This document shows, piece after piece, positions 3,293 through 29,637 of a DNA stretch of 55,527 nt. The stretch spans positions 1-55,527 of the forward strand of contig CANJLF010000019.1 in assembly GCA_947475295.1 (NCBI GenBank). The letters are read 5' to 3'. Origin of the DNA: Fidelibacterota bacterium (GTDB lineage Bacteria; Pseudomonadota; Alphaproteobacteria; Rhodospirillales; Rhodospirillaceae). Positions within the stretch are counted from its first letter, which is position 1. Every line of letters starts with the position of its first letter. The notes beneath the pieces were generated by a model that saw nothing but the letters and a program-made list of their open reading frames with translations, was not told the origin of the DNA and searched no databases. The translations under genes were made by a program, and so were the position numbers.

Positions 3293-3344
3293 ATATTATT
3301 ATATATTAATGTCTTAACTTCATTTCGCGCGTGCGCAAATTTTC

Positions 3345-3412
3345 TGTGTGCACTGCACCATTTTTCCTTGACGGAAGCCGGCCGTCGTCTTATCTTGTGT
3401 GCATTGCAGCAT
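3345..3412 (+). promoter_or_regulatory. Phasin promoter flanked by paired TGCA-rich repeats (PhaR-type operator candidate)
   Basis: A sigma-70 type promoter is visible: TTGACG at 3368-3373, a 17-bp spacer, then TATCTT at 3391-3396. Two 17-bp direct repeats flank it: TGTGTGCACTGCACCAT at 3345-3361 and TGTGTGCATTGCAGCAT at 3396-3412, identical at 15 of 17 positions and offset by 51 bp. One lies just upstream of -35 and the other runs from -10 across the likely start site. The PHB-sensing repressor PhaR is known to bind TGC-rich sites at phasin promoters, so an operator role is inferred. No phaR gene is present in the window. Confidence 0.7.
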
Positions 3413-3525: not shown

Positions 3526-3888
3526 ATGACCGCCACTTTCACCGATTTCGCCGCTTTCAATCAGGACAACATCGACACGATGGTGAAGACCAACACCGCC
3601 GCCACGAAGGGCTTCGAGACTTTGACGAAGTACTTTGTCGACCTGGCCGGTAAGTCTTTCGAAGACGCCGTCGCCGCCGGCAAGAAGCTCGCCACCGCGA
3701 AGACCGTTGTTGAGTTCGTCCAGATCCAGACCAAGCTGGCGCAAGAGTCCATCGAAGTCGTGCTCGAAGAAGGCAAGAAGGTCTCCGATCTGACCACGTC
3801 CATCGTGAAGGACGTCACTTCGCCCATGACTGAACGTTTTAAGGTCGGCGTCGCGGTTGCGACGAAGGCCGCGAAAAAGGCTGCCTAA
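3526..3888 (+). CDS. Phasin family protein (PHB granule-associated)
   Basis: Small amphipathic protein that coats polyhydroxyalkanoate granules and limits their size. The ATG at 3526 (MTATFTDFAAFNQDNIDTM) is preceded by AAGGATC at suitable spacing and gives 120 residues, normal for the phasin_2 family. The sequence is almost wholly helical, with the family pattern of a central EFVQIQTKLAQESIEVVLEEG segment and a basic C terminus (ATKAAKKAA). The open frame upstream of 3526 covers the promoter and is not coding. The gene stands alone, with its own promoter and terminator. The stop codon forms part of a hairpin stem in the 3' UTR (see the 3' UTR entry). Confidence 0.9.
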   Translation: MTATFTDFAAFNQDNIDTMVKTNTAATKGFETLTKYFVDLAGKSFEDAVAAGKKLATAKTVVEFVQIQTKLAQESIEVVLEEGKKVSDLTTSIVKDVTSPMTERFKVGVAVATKAAKKAA

Positions 3889-3965
3889 ATATCCCTCCCC
3901 CCTTCTAGATTTTAGGCAGACTCCAGAAAAGCCCGGGTGGTCCTCCCCCAACCGGGCTTTTCGCC
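3883..3965 (+). ncRNA. Phasin 3' UTR: two hairpins with anti-SD (CCTCCCC) loops, the second a terminator
   Basis: Hairpin A is a perfect 7-bp stem, GCCTAAA (3883-3889, containing the stop codon) with TTTAGGC (3911-3917); its 21-nt loop contains CCCTCCCCCC. Hairpin B has a 10-bp stem, AAAAGCCCGG (3927-3936) with CCGGGCTTTT (3952-3961); its 15-nt loop contains GGTCCTCCCCC. Hairpin B has the form of a Rho-independent terminator. The same 11-mer recurs in three hairpins at 26.5 kb. A stable 3'-UTR-derived sRNA is inferred; at the least this is the phasin terminator. Confidence 0.6.
3927..3963 (+). terminator. Rho-independent terminator of the phasin gene
   Basis: A 10-bp perfect stem ending in CTTTT, 38 bp after the stop codon. 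It is the hairpin B described in the 3' UTR entry. Confidence 0.8.
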
Positions 3966-25904: not shown

Positions 25905-25936
25905 AAACGGCGCCTTAAAGGGCGCCGTTTTTCTTT
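25905..25936 (+). terminator. Rho-independent terminator of aatA
   Basis: A 10-bp perfect stem, AAACGGCGCC (25905-25914) with GGCGCCGTTT (25921-25930), 6-nt loop, followed by TTCTTT. It ends at the 3' edge of the convergent GNAT gene. Confidence 0.9.
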
Positions 25937-26409
25937 CAAAGTACCTTCGTCATTTCCACGTTTACGATGGGCGAATCCATTTCCGTGCCAGGATAGGTTC
26001 TAATCTCGATCCATCCTCTGCGCCGGTAAAAATCGCGAGCGCGTTCATTAAAAGACCGAACTTCTAACCGCGCGGTTGTATGCGTTTGCGCGATCCGGCG
26101 CTCGGCCTCTTTCAGCAGAGCCGAGCCGATACCCTTGCTCCATGACTTTGGGTCGACGTGAAGACTTTCCACACAGTCGGCGGCGACCTCTAACACGCCC
26201 ACGAGTTCATCATTCACAATAGCCACGGTGAGAGAGCGCCACGTGCGTTCAACGTACTTTCGCGCCGGATCATCAACCGCAAACCTCTGCACGGCGTCGA
26301 ACGGCAATTCTGGAGCCCAACTCACCAGCCACGAACGTCGCTCGAGACGAATCAGCCCTGCAATATCTGTTTCAAGTGCCGGCCTAAGGACGATTTCTTC
26401 GCTCGGCAT
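25936..26409 (-). CDS. GNAT family N-acetyltransferase
   Basis: A 157-residue single-domain acetyltransferase. The acetyl-CoA loop is visible in SWSKGIGSALLKEAERR (motif A, about residues 93-109), preceded by the ESLHVDPK strand and followed by ARLEVRSFNERARDFYRRRGW. The substrate is unknown. It is convergent with aatA, and the intergenic sRNA candidate lies upstream on the same strand. Base composition is slightly lower in GC than its neighbours. Confidence 0.85.
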   Translation of the reverse strand: MPSEEIVLRPALETDIAGLIRLERRSWLVSWAPELPFDAVQRFAVDDPARKYVERTWRSLTVAIVNDELVGVLEVAADCVESLHVDPKSWSKGIGSALLKEAERRIAQTHTTARLEVRSFNERARDFYRRRGWIEIRTYPGTEMDSPIVNVEMTKVL

Positions 26410-26487
26410 TTAATCCCCCACGAATCGCATGGGTGGAACGTATGTCATGACCGGTTGATAAGCGAGGAAGCGTCTACCCCGTAAAAT

Positions 26488-26522
26488 TTTCGCCCCTAGG
26501 GGGGAGGACCCTAGGGGCGAAA
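26488..26522 (-). terminator. Terminator-like perfect 14-bp hairpin (HP4)
   Basis: TTTCGCCCCTAGGG (26488-26501) is fully complementary to CCCTAGGGGCGAAA (26509-26522). On the minus strand the 3' side continues into ATTTT, a short T-run; on the plus strand there is none. This favours minus-strand transcription of the sRNA candidate. Confidence 0.6.
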
Positions 26523-26723
26523 GTCTCTCAGGGAGGCTTTGACACCTGATTAGACAATGTCCTGGGCTTTTATGCCCTTAGACGGCGGTGATGTTTGGGG
26601 GGAGGACCCTAGATCACCTTTGTCTACCCTTAGACCAAGTGATGAACGGGGGAGGACCGGCCATCACGAGTTTCTTGTTACTTCCGCACTTTCCGCGGTT
26701 TTTCCTGGGAGGGAGGGACCGCG
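26488..26723 (-). ncRNA. Candidate multi-hairpin sRNA locus with repeated anti-Shine-Dalgarno loops
   Basis: Read on the minus strand, four hairpins expose C-rich loops. HP1: stem 26694-26699/26718-26723, loop with CCCTCCCTCCC. HP2: GTGATG/CATCAC, 26639-26644/26662-26667, loop with GGTCCTCCCCC. HP3: GGTGAT/ATCACC, 26587-26592/26613-26618, loop with GGTCCTCCCCC. HP4: a 14-bp perfect stem, 26488-26501/26509-26522, loop TCCTCCC inside GGTCCTCCCCC, followed on this strand by ATTTT, so a plausible terminator. Another CCTCCC lies between HP3 and HP4. No credible ORF occupies the gap. It may be one RNA of about 240 nt or two tandem ones. The design matches anti-SD-loop sRNAs of alphaproteobacteria (cuckoo/CcsR, MmgR). 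No promoter could be placed with confidence. Confidence 0.6.
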
Positions 26724-26872
26724 TGATTGCTGCGACGCAACATCTGAGGGTGAGGCTATGCGCCAAGCCCCAGCATTTCCAATGCAATCTCGGAATGCCG
26801 CTATGCAGCATACGCATGCCCTGGCAGGTAAAAATGTCACATTCCCGGTAGGTCGAATCCGCCAAAATGGCT

Positions 26873-27832
26873 TTAGCTGGCGGTTTTGAGGACGTCGGAA
26901 GTCTGGGCGACCATGGTCAGTTGTAAGCGGGCCTTGGCGATTTCGCGCACCAGGTAATCCCGGAAGACGGCGACGCGCGCCGAATTGCGCAATTCCTCGG
27001 GGTACACGAAATAAGCCTCGATCGGCGGGCCTTCCAATTCTGGCAGCACTTGCACGATGCCGCGCCCTTCCTGGATGAAATATTCCGGCAGCGGGCCGAT
27101 GCCGATGCCGGCCTTCACGGCGCGATAGATGCCGTAGAGGCTGTTGACCCGAAGCGCCGAGCGGCTGGCGATCTTGTTCTTATGCAGGATGTCGGCGAGC
27201 CAGTGCACGCTGGCGACCGGCATGACGCCTTCGCCGAACAGCACCACGTCGTGACTCTTCAGGTCGTCCAAGGTGCGCGGCAGGCCGCGTTCCTTCAAAT
27301 ATTCCGGCGAGGCATAGAGATTGGAACGCAAGTTGCCGAGGTGGCGCTGAATCAAATCCGGCTGCCGCGGTTCGTTGAAACGGATGGCAACGTCGGCTTC
27401 GCGCATCGCCAAGTCCAACTCCTGGTCGTCGAGACGCAAGGTCACTTCGATGTCGGGATAGGTGCGGATGAATTCTTTCAGGCGTCCCGTCAGCCACACC
27501 GAGCCAAAGCCGACGGCGGTGGTCACGCGCAGGGTGCCTTCGGCATTTTCTTTGGTTTCCGTCAGCAGGCTCTCGACGTTGTTCAGCTTAGCGAACACGT
27601 CGTGCACGGTTTTGTAGAGCAGATCGCCTTGCTCGGTCGGAATCAGTCCGCGGGCATGGCGGTGGAAGAGGCTGACGCCAAGCGCCTCTTCCAGCGCGCT
27701 GATCTGACGGCTGACGGCGGACTGGCTGAGATTGAGGGTTTCGCTGGCATGGGTAAAGCTGCCGGCTTCGGCAACCGCGTGAAACACGCGCAGTTTATCC
27801 CAATCAAGACGTCCGTTGCTGCGTAATGGCAT
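26873..27832 (-). CDS. LysR family transcriptional regulator
   Basis: A 319-residue DNA-binding regulator. The N-terminal winged HTH is LDWDKLRVFHAVAEAGSFTHASETLNL... through QSAVSRQISALEEALGVSLF (residues about 9-58). The rest is a type 2 periplasmic-binding-like effector domain. It lies 74 bp after trxB on the same strand and could be co-transcribed with it. The effector is unknown. A CCGCCA/TGGCGG hairpin spans its stop codon (26859-26883), and the sRNA candidate lies beyond. Confidence 0.9.
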   Translation of the reverse strand: MPLRSNGRLDWDKLRVFHAVAEAGSFTHASETLNLSQSAVSRQISALEEALGVSLFHRHARGLIPTEQGDLLYKTVHDVFAKLNNVESLLTETKENAEGTLRVTTAVGFGSVWLTGRLKEFIRTYPDIEVTLRLDDQELDLAMREADVAIRFNEPRQPDLIQRHLGNLRSNLYASPEYLKERGLPRTLDDLKSHDVVLFGEGVMPVASVHWLADILHKNKIASRSALRVNSLYGIYRAVKAGIGIGPLPEYFIQEGRGIVQVLPELEGPPIEAYFVYPEELRNSARVAVFRDYLVREIAKARLQLTMVAQTSDVLKTAS

Positions 27833-27906: not shown

Positions 27907-28851
27907 TTAAGCGCCTGCGGCAGCCAGGAAGCGGTCCGCTTCCAATGCCGCCATGCAGCCTGTTCCGGCGGCGGTCACGGCCTGCCGGTAAACGTGATCC
28001 TGAACGTCGCCCGCGGCAAACACGCCGGGGATATTGGTGCGGGTGGAATCCGCCGCGGTGACGAGATAGCCGTTCTCGTCCATGTCGAGCAGCCCCTTGA
28101 ACAGTTCGGTGTTGGGTGTATGGCCGATGGCGATGAACAGGCCGTCGGTCTTGACCTCCTGCACCGCGCCGGTCTTGACGTTCTTCAAGCGCACGCCGGT
28201 GACACCCGGCGGGCCCTGTTTACCCAGGACTTCGTCCACGGCCGAATCCCAGACCACTTGAATCTTGGGATGGTCGAACATGCGCTTTTGCAGAATTTTT
28301 TCGGCGCGCAAGAAATCGCGGCGATGCACCAGCGTCACTTTGGTGGCGTGGTTGGTCAGGTAAAGGGCTTCCTCGACGGCGGTATTGCCGCCGCCGACCA
28401 CAACGACTTCCTTGCCGCGGAAGAAGAAGCCGTCACAGGTCGCGCAAGCCGAAACGCCGAAGCCCTGAAACTTCTTTTCCGACTCTAAGCCCAGCCAGCG
28501 CGCCGAGGCGCCGGTGGTGACGATCAGGCTGTCGCCGGTGTAAACGTCGCCGGAATCGCCCGTACAGGTGAACGGGCGCTTGGACAGGTCGATTTTCACG
28601 ATGGTGTCGTGCATCACTTTCGCGCCGACATGCTCGGCCTGCTTCTGCATCTGTTCCATGAGCCAGGGGCCCTGGATGACGTCGGGGAAGCCGGGGTAGT
28701 TCTCCACGTCCGTGGTGATGGTCATCTGCCCGCCGGGCTGCATGCCGGCGACGATCACCGGCGCCAGATTGGCGCGGGCGGCATAGATGGCGGCGGTCAG
28801 GCCCGCAGGCCCCGACCCGAGAATCAGCACTTTGGTGTGAATATGAGCCAT
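27907..28851 (-). CDS. trxB: Thioredoxin reductase
   Basis: FAD enzyme passing electrons from NADPH to thioredoxin. From ATG 28851 (MAHIHTKVLILGSGPAG) it is 314 residues, the standard length; the frame is open about 46 codons further upstream but shows no homology. The FAD motif is GSGPAGLTAA, the NADPH motif GGGNTAVEEA, and the redox disulfide CATC in SACATCDGFFF. The C-terminal FAD motif is GVFAAGDVQDHVYRQ. It is divergent from an Lrp-type regulator, an arrangement conserved in alphaproteobacteria, and upstream of the LysR gene. Confidence 0.96.
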   Translation of the reverse strand: MAHIHTKVLILGSGPAGLTAAIYAARANLAPVIVAGMQPGGQMTITTDVENYPGFPDVIQGPWLMEQMQKQAEHVGAKVMHDTIVKIDLSKRPFTCTGDSGDVYTGDSLIVTTGASARWLGLESEKKFQGFGVSACATCDGFFFRGKEVVVVGGGNTAVEEALYLTNHATKVTLVHRRDFLRAEKILQKRMFDHPKIQVVWDSAVDEVLGKQGPPGVTGVRLKNVKTGAVQEVKTDGLFIAIGHTPNTELFKGLLDMDENGYLVTAADSTRTNIPGVFAAGDVQDHVYRQAVTAAGTGCMAALEADRFLAAAGA

Positions 28852-29121
28852 GACAAAAAATGGGGTAAAGGCATTGCTTTGCGATGCAACATTGAGGGGT
28901 AACATACGGTTGCTATGCGTCTGGCGCAAGGCTAGGGGGCCAAATGCCGCTTTTGTGACGTCGTGACGGAATTGCCCATTACTGGCCAAACAAATTTTTC
29001 TATTGCGTCATAGGGCAGGGGATTTGTAATAATATTTCGTAAGTTGGGGAGAGGCGGGGAAGCCGGGGGGCACACCGCTTCGTAACCCCTCGGGGGACCT
29101 ATCAATGAAACGGGCAAAGCG

Positions 29122-29637
29122 ATGCAACGGGTAAAGCTCGACCGCATCGATCGGCAAATCCTGAGCGATTTGCAGAGCGATGGCCGCATGACCAACGTGG
29201 ATCTGGCCCAGCGCGCCGGGATTTCGGCGCCGCCGTGCCTGCGCCGTGTCCGGGCCTTGGAACAGGCCGGCTACATCAAGGGCTACCATGCCCAGCTGGA
29301 CCCCGCGACGCTCGGCTATACGGTGACGGTCTTTGCCCATGTGGGCCTCAACAGCCAAGCCGAAGCCGATCTCACGGCCTTTGAAAGCCTGGTCAAGGAA
29401 TGGCCGGAAGTGCGCGAGTGCCACATGCTGGCCGGGGAAACCGATTTCCTGCTGCGCATTGTCGCCAAGGATTGGGACGCCTATCAGCGCTTCGTGACCG
29501 AAAAGCTGACGGCGGCGCCAAAGGTCGCCAACGTCAAATCGGCCCTGGCGATCCGCAGCGCCAAAAACCTGCCCGGCGTGCCCATCGCCGTGGACGGCGA
29601 CAAACCGGCCCAACCGCCGCTGACAGTGCCCGCCTAG
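29122..29637 (+). CDS. Lrp/AsnC family transcriptional regulator
   Basis: A 171-residue regulator. The N-terminal HTH is LDRIDRQILSDLQSDGRMTNVDLAQRAG then SAPPCLRRVRALEQAGYI. The C-terminal RAM (amino-acid sensing) domain includes CHMLAGETDFLLRIVAKDWDAY, followed by a short Pro-rich tail not usual in Lrp. It is divergent from trxB across 270 bp. An overlapping ATG at 29105 is out of frame. The effector amino acid is unknown. Confidence 0.92.
   Translation: MQRVKLDRIDRQILSDLQSDGRMTNVDLAQRAGISAPPCLRRVRALEQAGYIKGYHAQLDPATLGYTVTVFAHVGLNSQAEADLTAFESLVKEWPEVRECHMLAGETDFLLRIVAKDWDAYQRFVTEKLTAAPKVANVKSALAIRSAKNLPGVPIAVDGDKPAQPPLTVPA

Follow-up and report, generated by a model that had tools for sequence, protein, structure and literature searches.

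The minus strand of the 463-bp gap between a lysR and a GNAT gene (26410-26872, between called ORFs) probably encodes an independently transcribed, trans-acting anti-Shine-Dalgarno (anti-SD) sRNA, which would be a rebuilt multi-hairpin occupant of a slot controlled by an LsrB/VtlR-type LysR regulator; the probability of this reading is put at about 0.7. It is carried by synteny, an operator, promoter-like elements, covarying stems, conserved loops, conservation throughout the genus, and a twin hairpin behind a phasin gene, all of which are read from the sequence. By the family tests given below, the multi-loop element lies outside ar15, ar14, mmgR, and CcsR and would extend the LsrB/VtlR-controlled sRNA circuit by a new variant. 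The slot itself, located behind an LsrB/VtlR-type LysR gene and predicted to be controlled by that LysR, is found in several alphaproteobacterial orders. Herein, the window means the whole stretch of 55,527 nucleotides that was analyzed, and its features are compiled in Table 1.

Table 1. Features of the predicted sRNA, its promoter region, the lysR neighborhood, and the phasin locus in the window
Feature	Position	Strand	Basis or remark
LysR-type operator ATGC-N7-GCAT, 72 nt before the inferred start	26803..26817	-	conservation
GCATAGCGGCATT, LsrB/VtlR box-like	26794..26806	-	-61 to -49 of the inferred start; one mismatch
-35-like TTGGAA	26777..26782	-	GCATTGGAAA kept in the genus alignment, one letter off in L008
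-10-like TAGCCT (TA-N3-T)	26753..26758	-	T, A, T invariant in 9/9 genus rows
Inferred sRNA, 263 nt	26483..26745	-	start: S. meliloti comparison; end: terminal hairpin
PhaR-type palindrome, +1 to +21 of the inferred RNA	26725..26745	-	20/21 positions fit the S. meliloti PhaR motif
Hairpin A, CCCUCCCUCCC partly exposed	26695..26722	-	folds
Hairpin B, loop UCCUCCC at 26650-26656	26639..26667	-	covariation, folds
Small hairpin GUCUA-AGGG-UAGAC	26622..26635	-	genus alignment
Hairpin C, loop UCCUCCC at 26600-26606	26587..26618	-	covariation
Hairpin D, without anti-SD loop	26559..26583	-	genus alignment
GCCUCCCU ahead of the terminal hairpin	26530..26537	-	unpaired 0.20 in the full-length fold, mostly paired
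Terminal hairpin, 14 bp, loop UCCUCCC at 26502-26508, then AUUUU	26483..26522	-	
lysR, positional equivalent of lsrB/vtlR	26873..27832	-	Pfam LysR domains
trxB, thioredoxin reductase	27907..28989	-	NCBIfam TIGR01292 over cut-off
Lrp/AsnC regulator	29122..29637	+	divergent orientation to trxB, shared with S. meliloti
PhaR-type palindrome upstream of the phasin gene	3343..3363	+	sole zero-mismatch match in the window
Second anti-SD stretch CCCUCCCCCC, directly after the phasin stop	3893..3902	+	genus conservation
Twin hairpin in the phasin 3' UTR, carries GGUCCUCCCCC	3926..3962	+	covariation, 13 genus loci

The 11-mer GGTCCTCCCCC occurs exactly on the minus strand at 26500-26510, 26598-26608, and 26648-26658 (window scan). 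The 2.70-Mb genome holds four copies, all of them in the window and the fourth at 3939-3949 (+), as compared with one copy of the same 11-mer read backwards as a genome-wide control. The preliminary description had reported three minus-strand hairpins with the identical 11-mer GGUCCUCCCCC, and exact copies are indeed found in 26488-26522, 26587-26618, and 26639-26667; a renewed reading of the letters also bears out the 14-bp stem followed by ATTTT in the last of them (26488-26522). The U-run after this terminal hairpin is short, and a scan of the gap yielded neither a consensus terminator nor a sigma-70 promoter. Folding of the array region (26484-26770, 287 nt), a check proposed along with the hairpins, gave a z of -5.25, with none of 200 shuffles equally good. 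The described exposure of the loops applies to the 7-mer UCCUCCC, which is unpaired with a mean probability of 0.99, 0.90, and 1.00 in the three hairpins versus a mean of 0.39 for the RNA, and not to the 11-mer as a whole, whose flanking G and C close the stems. Similarly, the fourth hairpin is present at 26695-26722, but its CCCUCCCUCCC is open just partly (unpaired 0.58-0.71). The element reaches beyond the hairpins described: promoter-like sequence, operator, and 5' end are located farther upstream, at 26725-26817.

The search with the LysR protein beside the gap covered 60 relatives and the own genome. From 16 of 18 same-genus relatives a LysR orthologue with its downstream gap was obtained, giving 17 gaps together with the window (the gap of L012 is cut by a contig end). 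Every one of the 17 contains at least one CCTCCC-type hairpin loop. An automated count, which also takes in GCCTCCC and CCCTCCC and, for L008, a loop located upstream of the operator, gives one to five per gap. In the gap of L021, two tandem short units stand in place of the array, and promoter-like sequence accompanies each of them. For covariation, the nine full-length sequences among the 17 were aligned, and the structure was named from the window fold. Of 444 cells in this alignment, 96.6% are paired; 14 of 50 pairs are changed on both sides, in 34 cells. These values were reached by none of 500 shuffles, and slid-partner controls gave at most 53.5% paired. Across this genus alignment, a single letter in L014 is the sole change in the loops of hairpins B, C, and the terminal hairpin. 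Hence, the comparison of related gaps that had been suggested turned out as the preliminary description had anticipated, with stems that vary and loops that stay constant, and its central claim of an sRNA-type element with repeated anti-SD loops under selection is sustained by the covarying stems and fixed loops.

The individual parts contribute unequally. In the outer stems of hairpins B and C, four of six pairs each are changed on both sides, around an invariant loop in hairpin B. An isolated fold of hairpin C that omits the outermost pair does not surpass shuffles (z = +0.36); this hairpin is supported by covariation. The terminal hairpin has two pairs changed on both sides and a z of -6.44 when folded in isolation. 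The small hairpin between B and C is almost unchanged in the genus and therefore provides no covariation evidence. Hairpin A varies between rows, and TCCTCCCCC stands at its position in six of the eight other rows of the alignment. By position and by eye, hairpin D may be the equivalent of the GGGUCUUCGGACCC hairpin of an RNA conserved at order level (described below), and GCCUCCCU is possibly a remnant of AAGCCUCCCUGUU from the core of that RNA.

As the 11-mer is identical and repeated, GGGGGAGGACC might be taken for a DNA site bound by a protein rather than for an RNA loop. The flanking arms, however, show base-pair covariation at two loci, here and behind the phasin gene, which a DNA site does not need and which contradicts this explanation; we regard it as very unlikely. 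A cis-acting leader or attenuator of the GNAT gene (25936-26409) was considered as well, the array being situated directly upstream of this gene and on the same strand. GNAT follows the array in just two of 20 loci (window and L006), whereas a convergent aspC is near by in 18 of 20; arrays thus persist without GNAT, and the leader explanation, to which we give next to no credence, was rejected.

The neighborhood argues for the reading as an occupant of a LysR-controlled sRNA slot. Sinorhizobium-type order is seen in S. meliloti CP090106.1 (L254), where Lrp, trxB, and LysR are followed by a gap with two ar15 RNAs (matches at 110 and 107 bits) and by ArsR. The window LysR is 50.7% identical to the S. 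meliloti LysR located between trxB and the two ar15 RNAs, and greA was identified by eye beyond the divergent Lrp gene of the window. In passages of PMC7486931 and PMC3712013, this Lrp-trxB-LysR locus of S. meliloti is named vtlR/lsrB-abcR1-abcR2. The location behind trxB and lsrB/vtlR-type genes, a hallmark of AbcR/ar15 RNAs, is thus shared by the window, and the predicted RNA looks like a rebuilt multi-loop occupant of the LsrB-controlled slot. Since it does not match the ar15 model, it is not filed as AbcR.

The operator palindrome ATGC-N7-GCAT was first noticed in the genus gaps, of which it is present in 17/17; it also occurs in 29 of 49 gaps with the order-level core. Controls contained it in 0/46 lysR-internal stretches and 0.3 of 49 shuffled gaps. 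It is found with the same geometry in the S. meliloti abcR1 promoter (L254) and in L256. The published LsrB/VtlR box is GCAT-N3-TG-N3-T at -61 to -49 of the start, according to portions of PMC8844928 and PMC7486931. In the S. meliloti gap, ATGCGCAAACGGCATGGCTGTCAT consists of the ATGC-N7-GCAT palindrome running into this published box, and in the window, ATGCGTATGCTGCATAGCGGCATT consists of the identical palindrome running into the box with one mismatch to GCAT-N3-TG-N3-T, at a position that leans on the inferred start and hence is not independent. The window box region matches the reverse complement of the published Brucella abortus VtlR motif at 12 of 15 positions, and none of 100 shuffles was as good. 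The exact LsrB box occurs in 0/22 genus and family gaps, and the resemblance to the Brucella motif is clear just in some of them. L255 has the exact box without the palindrome; L257-L259 contain neither. Operator start and RNA start are 72 nt apart in both S. meliloti and the window, an equality that is not fully independent because the window start was chosen by comparison with S. meliloti (CTCAG in both), where the RNA start is the start of the ar15 match.

A weight matrix was trained on 31 loci from other genera, the operator palindrome being masked at its eight bases. It ranks the window site 9th of 110,850 window positions; one window position scores above the S. meliloti site. The matrix performs unevenly: other genus sites are exceeded by one to 375 window positions, with four ranking 31-375. 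Taken by parts, the promoter half of the window site ranks 353rd and the RNA 5' end 7,558th. The best-scoring position in the window is the region upstream of the phasin gene.

These promoter-like sequences bear on the possibility that the RNA derives solely from 3'-UTR processing of the lysR mRNA and has no promoter of its own. The array is located downstream of lysR on the same strand, the scan of the gap found no sigma-70 consensus promoter, and SorX and CcsR are 3'-UTR-derived RNAs in the account given in parts of PMC8625941. On the other side, a start conserved in the genus is preceded at near-constant spacing by the operator, TTGGAA, and TA-N3-T, whose register agrees with that of the abcR1 promoter in S. 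meliloti. We therefore consider a processed lysR 3' UTR unlikely and predict independent transcription of the anti-SD sRNA, with LysR binding at the operator.

The preliminary description had proposed the array as a candidate member of the cuckoo/CcsR/MmgR type. The proposed search with Infernal and Rfam models gave 19.4 bits for ar14 against a cut-off of 58.8 and 17.1 bits for suhB/mmgR against 41, and the membership was not upheld: these scores are below threshold, and neighborhood and promoter match the LsrB/VtlR-AbcR locus instead. No Rfam family reaches its gathering score in the gap. For ar14/NfeR1 (RF02344), where at least 58.8 bits are required, L010 scores 26.6; the 17.1 bits for MmgR/suhB (RF00519), where at least 41 are required, were obtained in the gap. 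The ar15 model (RF02345) gave no match at E up to 10 in 26400-26880, as compared with 97-114 bits for the positive controls L254, L255, and L256. Searches of class samples, with 0/142 for RF02343 (ar9) and 0/190 for RF02345, are uninformative since their controls were silent as well. The sole RF00519 match of the own genome, located elsewhere, is below threshold (32.1 bits) in a stretch without CCTCCC and was set aside.

Cuckoo/CcsR RNAs have CCUCCUCCC-type loops and a repeated anti-SD motif. In the window the loop is GGUCCUCCCCC and the upstream gene encodes LysR. CcsR1-4 resemble the window RNA in the repeated motif and differ in neighborhood, CcsR being the 3' UTR of ccaF1 as stated in sections of PMC8625941. 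With ar14/NfeR1 and SmelA075/SmelA099, the window RNA shares several anti-SD-loop hairpins, variable stems, and a varying hairpin number (PMC3927594), and NfeR1 has three motifs according to an excerpt of PMC8844928; in contrast, loop sequence and locus differ, and the covariance score is far under the cut-off. True membership in cuckoo/CcsR or ar14/NfeR1 by descent would accord with the hairpin architecture of SmelA075/SmelA099 (PMC3927594) and with the weak ar14 matches in the window and L010. All ar14 scores, however, remain under the gathering score, the loop is UCCUCCCCC instead of CCUCCUCCC, and location and promoter are those of the LsrB slot, which makes such descent quite improbable. 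MmgR/SisA-D (ar8, RF00519) contain a similar CCUCCCU-type core (PMC12559287). A PhaR-type site is located near the start of mmgR (PMC12542648), and the palindrome at the predicted RNA start of the window may correspond to it; the preliminary description had not mentioned this MmgR-like trait. The window differs from MmgR in having no adjoining N-formylglutamate amidohydrolase gene, a sub-threshold score, and several loops. SorX/SorY (RF02784, RF02651) have CCUCCCUGUU and a terminator in common with the order-level core; no SorX match is present in the window.

Among the closest known systems is AbcR1/AbcR2 of Rhizobiaceae (RF02345, ar15), which shares with the window the slot Lrp-trxB-LysR-sRNA, the operator before abcR1, and anti-SD seeds. 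AbcR seeds consist of one loop and one linker, whereas those of the window are repeated hairpin loops, and AbcR is a pair of sibling RNAs as opposed to one RNA with several loops. Furthermore, the window has a PhaR-type box at the start, of which none was seen at the three Rhizobiaceae loci, and, unlike AbcR, it fails the ar15 model.

One genome scan gave 80 loci of named relatives, and 46 of these contain a different and highly conserved RNA, CGTCTCCCAGACGTGAAGCCTCCCTGTT, within 600 nt after lysR; these 46 and L029-L031 make up the 49 core gaps. The core is mostly followed by a terminator-like hairpin. Scanned against Rfam 15, six core-bearing loci (L030, L031, L046, L058, L068, and L108) gave no gap match at gathering score, so that one alignment could annotate this RNA in many genera, which include Azospirillum, Kiloniella, and Nisaea. 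At a permissive threshold, L058 gives SorX at 27.8 bits, below the cut-off. In the literature on AbcR/LsrB, on alphaproteobacterial anti-SD sRNAs, and on CUCCCUGUU, the order-level RNA was absent among the matches listed. A covariance model of 39 sequences, termed R1 (E-values are rough), found the RNA in 116 of 289 class genomes, some of which are training genomes. This LysR gene lies upstream on the same strand in 22 of the best 30 R1 loci, one of which, L137, is a partial match. Other genera of the window's family carry R1 at 84 bits (L029) and 78 bits (L034), with L025 intermediate at 31.5 bits. R1 gave 3 bits on the window gap, which is no match, and nothing in the own genome at E <= 0.001. 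L025 also scores for suhB/mmgR (31.4 bits) and SorX (24.2 bits), both below cut-off. Bridge forms are seen in L025 and L040, in which TTTAAAGCTTCCCTGTAGAACTTTGCCCCGG stands between GTGAAGCCTCCCTGTTCAACTTGCC and the CAAAGCCTCCCTGAGAGACTTTCGCCCC of the window. We infer a conserved regulatory slot in which the RNA body diverged or was replaced and sometimes lost; the descent of this RNA body is argued from position, promoter, and intermediates such as L025. No ar15 or R1 RNA was found after the LysR relatives of L258 (Methylobacterium) and L259 (Tistrella).

Two further observations concern occupants of related positions. In Paracoccus denitrificans (L257:4037-4125), SorX matches over its gathering score with 52.6 bits, and R1 gives 23 bits; the LysR upstream of this match is 47.7% identical to the window LysR. 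For R. sphaeroides, SorX is given as a 3'-UTR product of ompR-1 in a portion of PMC8625941. In the lsrB-like gaps of L042-L114, a hairpin of the order-level RNA contains CUCCCA, which is the M1 motif of Brucella AbcR as published in PMC5461406.

The predicted RNA start of the window coincides with a PhaR-type palindrome. The core of the PhaR motif is present in 14/17 genus, 3/3 family, and 12/31 order rows, where shuffles expect 0.18, 0.06, and 0.29; equal-length control stretches contain it in 0/17, 0/3, and 4/31, respectively. Its usual distance to the operator start is 77-82 nt; three genus rows have 69 nt and one order row has 88 nt. The core is absent from the three Rhizobiaceae loci examined. 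Alone, the motif is weak, with seven window matches at <=1 mismatch versus 7.5 expected. Equally, 26728-26742 within the palindrome could be a 5' RNA hairpin; the paired letters hardly vary, so that the alignment accommodates either a PhaR site or a hairpin. For S. meliloti, PMC12542648 places a PhaR-type site in the mmgR promoter.

The fourth copy of the 11-mer is located behind a phasin gene (Pfam Phasin_2), in its 3' UTR. A phasin match was obtained in 14 of 19 genus genomes, 13 of them with usable downstream sequence. All 13 loci carry the hairpin with a UCCUCCC loop; 99.4% of cells are paired, and six of 14 pairs are changed on both sides. The exact 11-mer is kept in 12 of 13, L174 having one extra A. 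Directly after the stop codon, a C-rich CCTCC stretch is present in 13/13 loci. With its two anti-SD stretches, 3886-3962 is a candidate 3'-UTR-derived sRNA. Downstream of phasin in L178, which belongs to a different genus of this family, the anti-SD hairpins GUGUCCUCCCACAC and GGCGUCCUCCCACGCC follow one upon the other, so that hairpin multiplication may occur there too. In the literature on phasin UTR sRNAs and on MmgR and phasin, a phasin 3'-UTR anti-SD RNA was absent among the matches listed.

All targets of the loops are predictions from ribosome-binding sites. GGGGAGGA at SD distance from ATG is found eight times in the genome versus zero times for the backwards control, and GGGAGGA at SD spacing 31 times versus five. 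Judged by eye from the N terminus, seven of the eight GGGGAGGA genes encode exported-looking or membrane-bound proteins; Pfam assigned hydrolases, an M61 peptidase, a MacB/FtsX permease, a tannase, and others, with nothing for one. The first control pattern, AAGGAGGA, has six sites, with one clearly exported-looking protein and two only short ORFs. For hydropathy, 30 GGGAGGA ORFs of at least 60 aa, paralogues included (L224-L226; L206 and L219), were compared with ten AGGAGGA ORFs and with 42 window ORFs whose starts were set by a crude rule. At a cut-off of 1.6, which was set first, 17/30 GGGAGGA ORFs are exported-like, against 3/10 AGGAGGA ORFs (p = 0.27) and 14/42 ORFs of the window (one-sided p = 0.042). 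A cut-off of 1.3, adopted later on the ground that scores of Tat-type signals are low, gives 24/30 against 4/10 (one-sided p = 0.026) and 18/42 (one-sided p = 0.0015). The enrichment depends on the cut-off, and a bias of GGGAGGA ribosome-site genes to exported proteins is suggestive. Known AbcR targets are mostly transport and metabolic mRNAs, as summarized in part of PMC8844928.

From these elements a mechanism can be outlined. In this genus, the RNA body would have been remodeled to carry several hairpins that share an unchanging 7-nt seed, UCCUCCC. The LysR protein would activate from ATGC-N7-GCAT, and a PhaR-type repressor would probably sit on the palindrome at the RNA start and leave as PHB accumulates. 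Base pairing of the loops with GGGAGGA ribosome sites, with Hfq as a putative partner of the RNA, would then prevent translation, chiefly of proteins that are exported or related to uptake. The same regulon would be fed by the phasin mRNA, whose 3' UTR carries the identical loop. The wider picture, which we advance tentatively and with odds somewhat short of even, is that of a carbon-storage regulon: PHB buildup would release the LsrB/PhaR-controlled sRNA and the phasin 3' UTR, which would silence GGGAGGA mRNAs, mostly of exported hydrolases and transport proteins. Herein, the loop GGUCCUCCCCC would be maintained independently in two RNAs, and an ancient slot would have had its RNA body repeatedly replaced or rebuilt, with ar15, a SorX-like RNA, the R1 core, and the multi-loop array as occupants and with the operator kept in most cases. 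The occurrence of one fixed loop in two transcripts, each with covarying stems, points to a common seed by which carbon storage and uptake may be connected. It is further suggested that the LsrB/VtlR-sRNA circuit known from rhizobia, agrobacteria, and brucellae has a greater age and a broader distribution than the members described so far, and that a regulatory slot can persist after the RNA filling it has gone.

The own genome contains ten TCCTCCCCC sites, four within the window and six elsewhere. In short folds, three of the latter show no such loop, and the site at C16:24609 is the complement of an SD. At C8:72226 (about 72,205-72,265; L119:1480-1540), TCCTCCCCC is predicted in a hairpin loop inside a longer stem, and at C3:127629 (about 127,600-127,660; L116:1470-1535), a terminator-type hairpin with the long anti-SD loop ATCCTCCCCCCCCTCCTAA is located between two reverse-strand ORFs.
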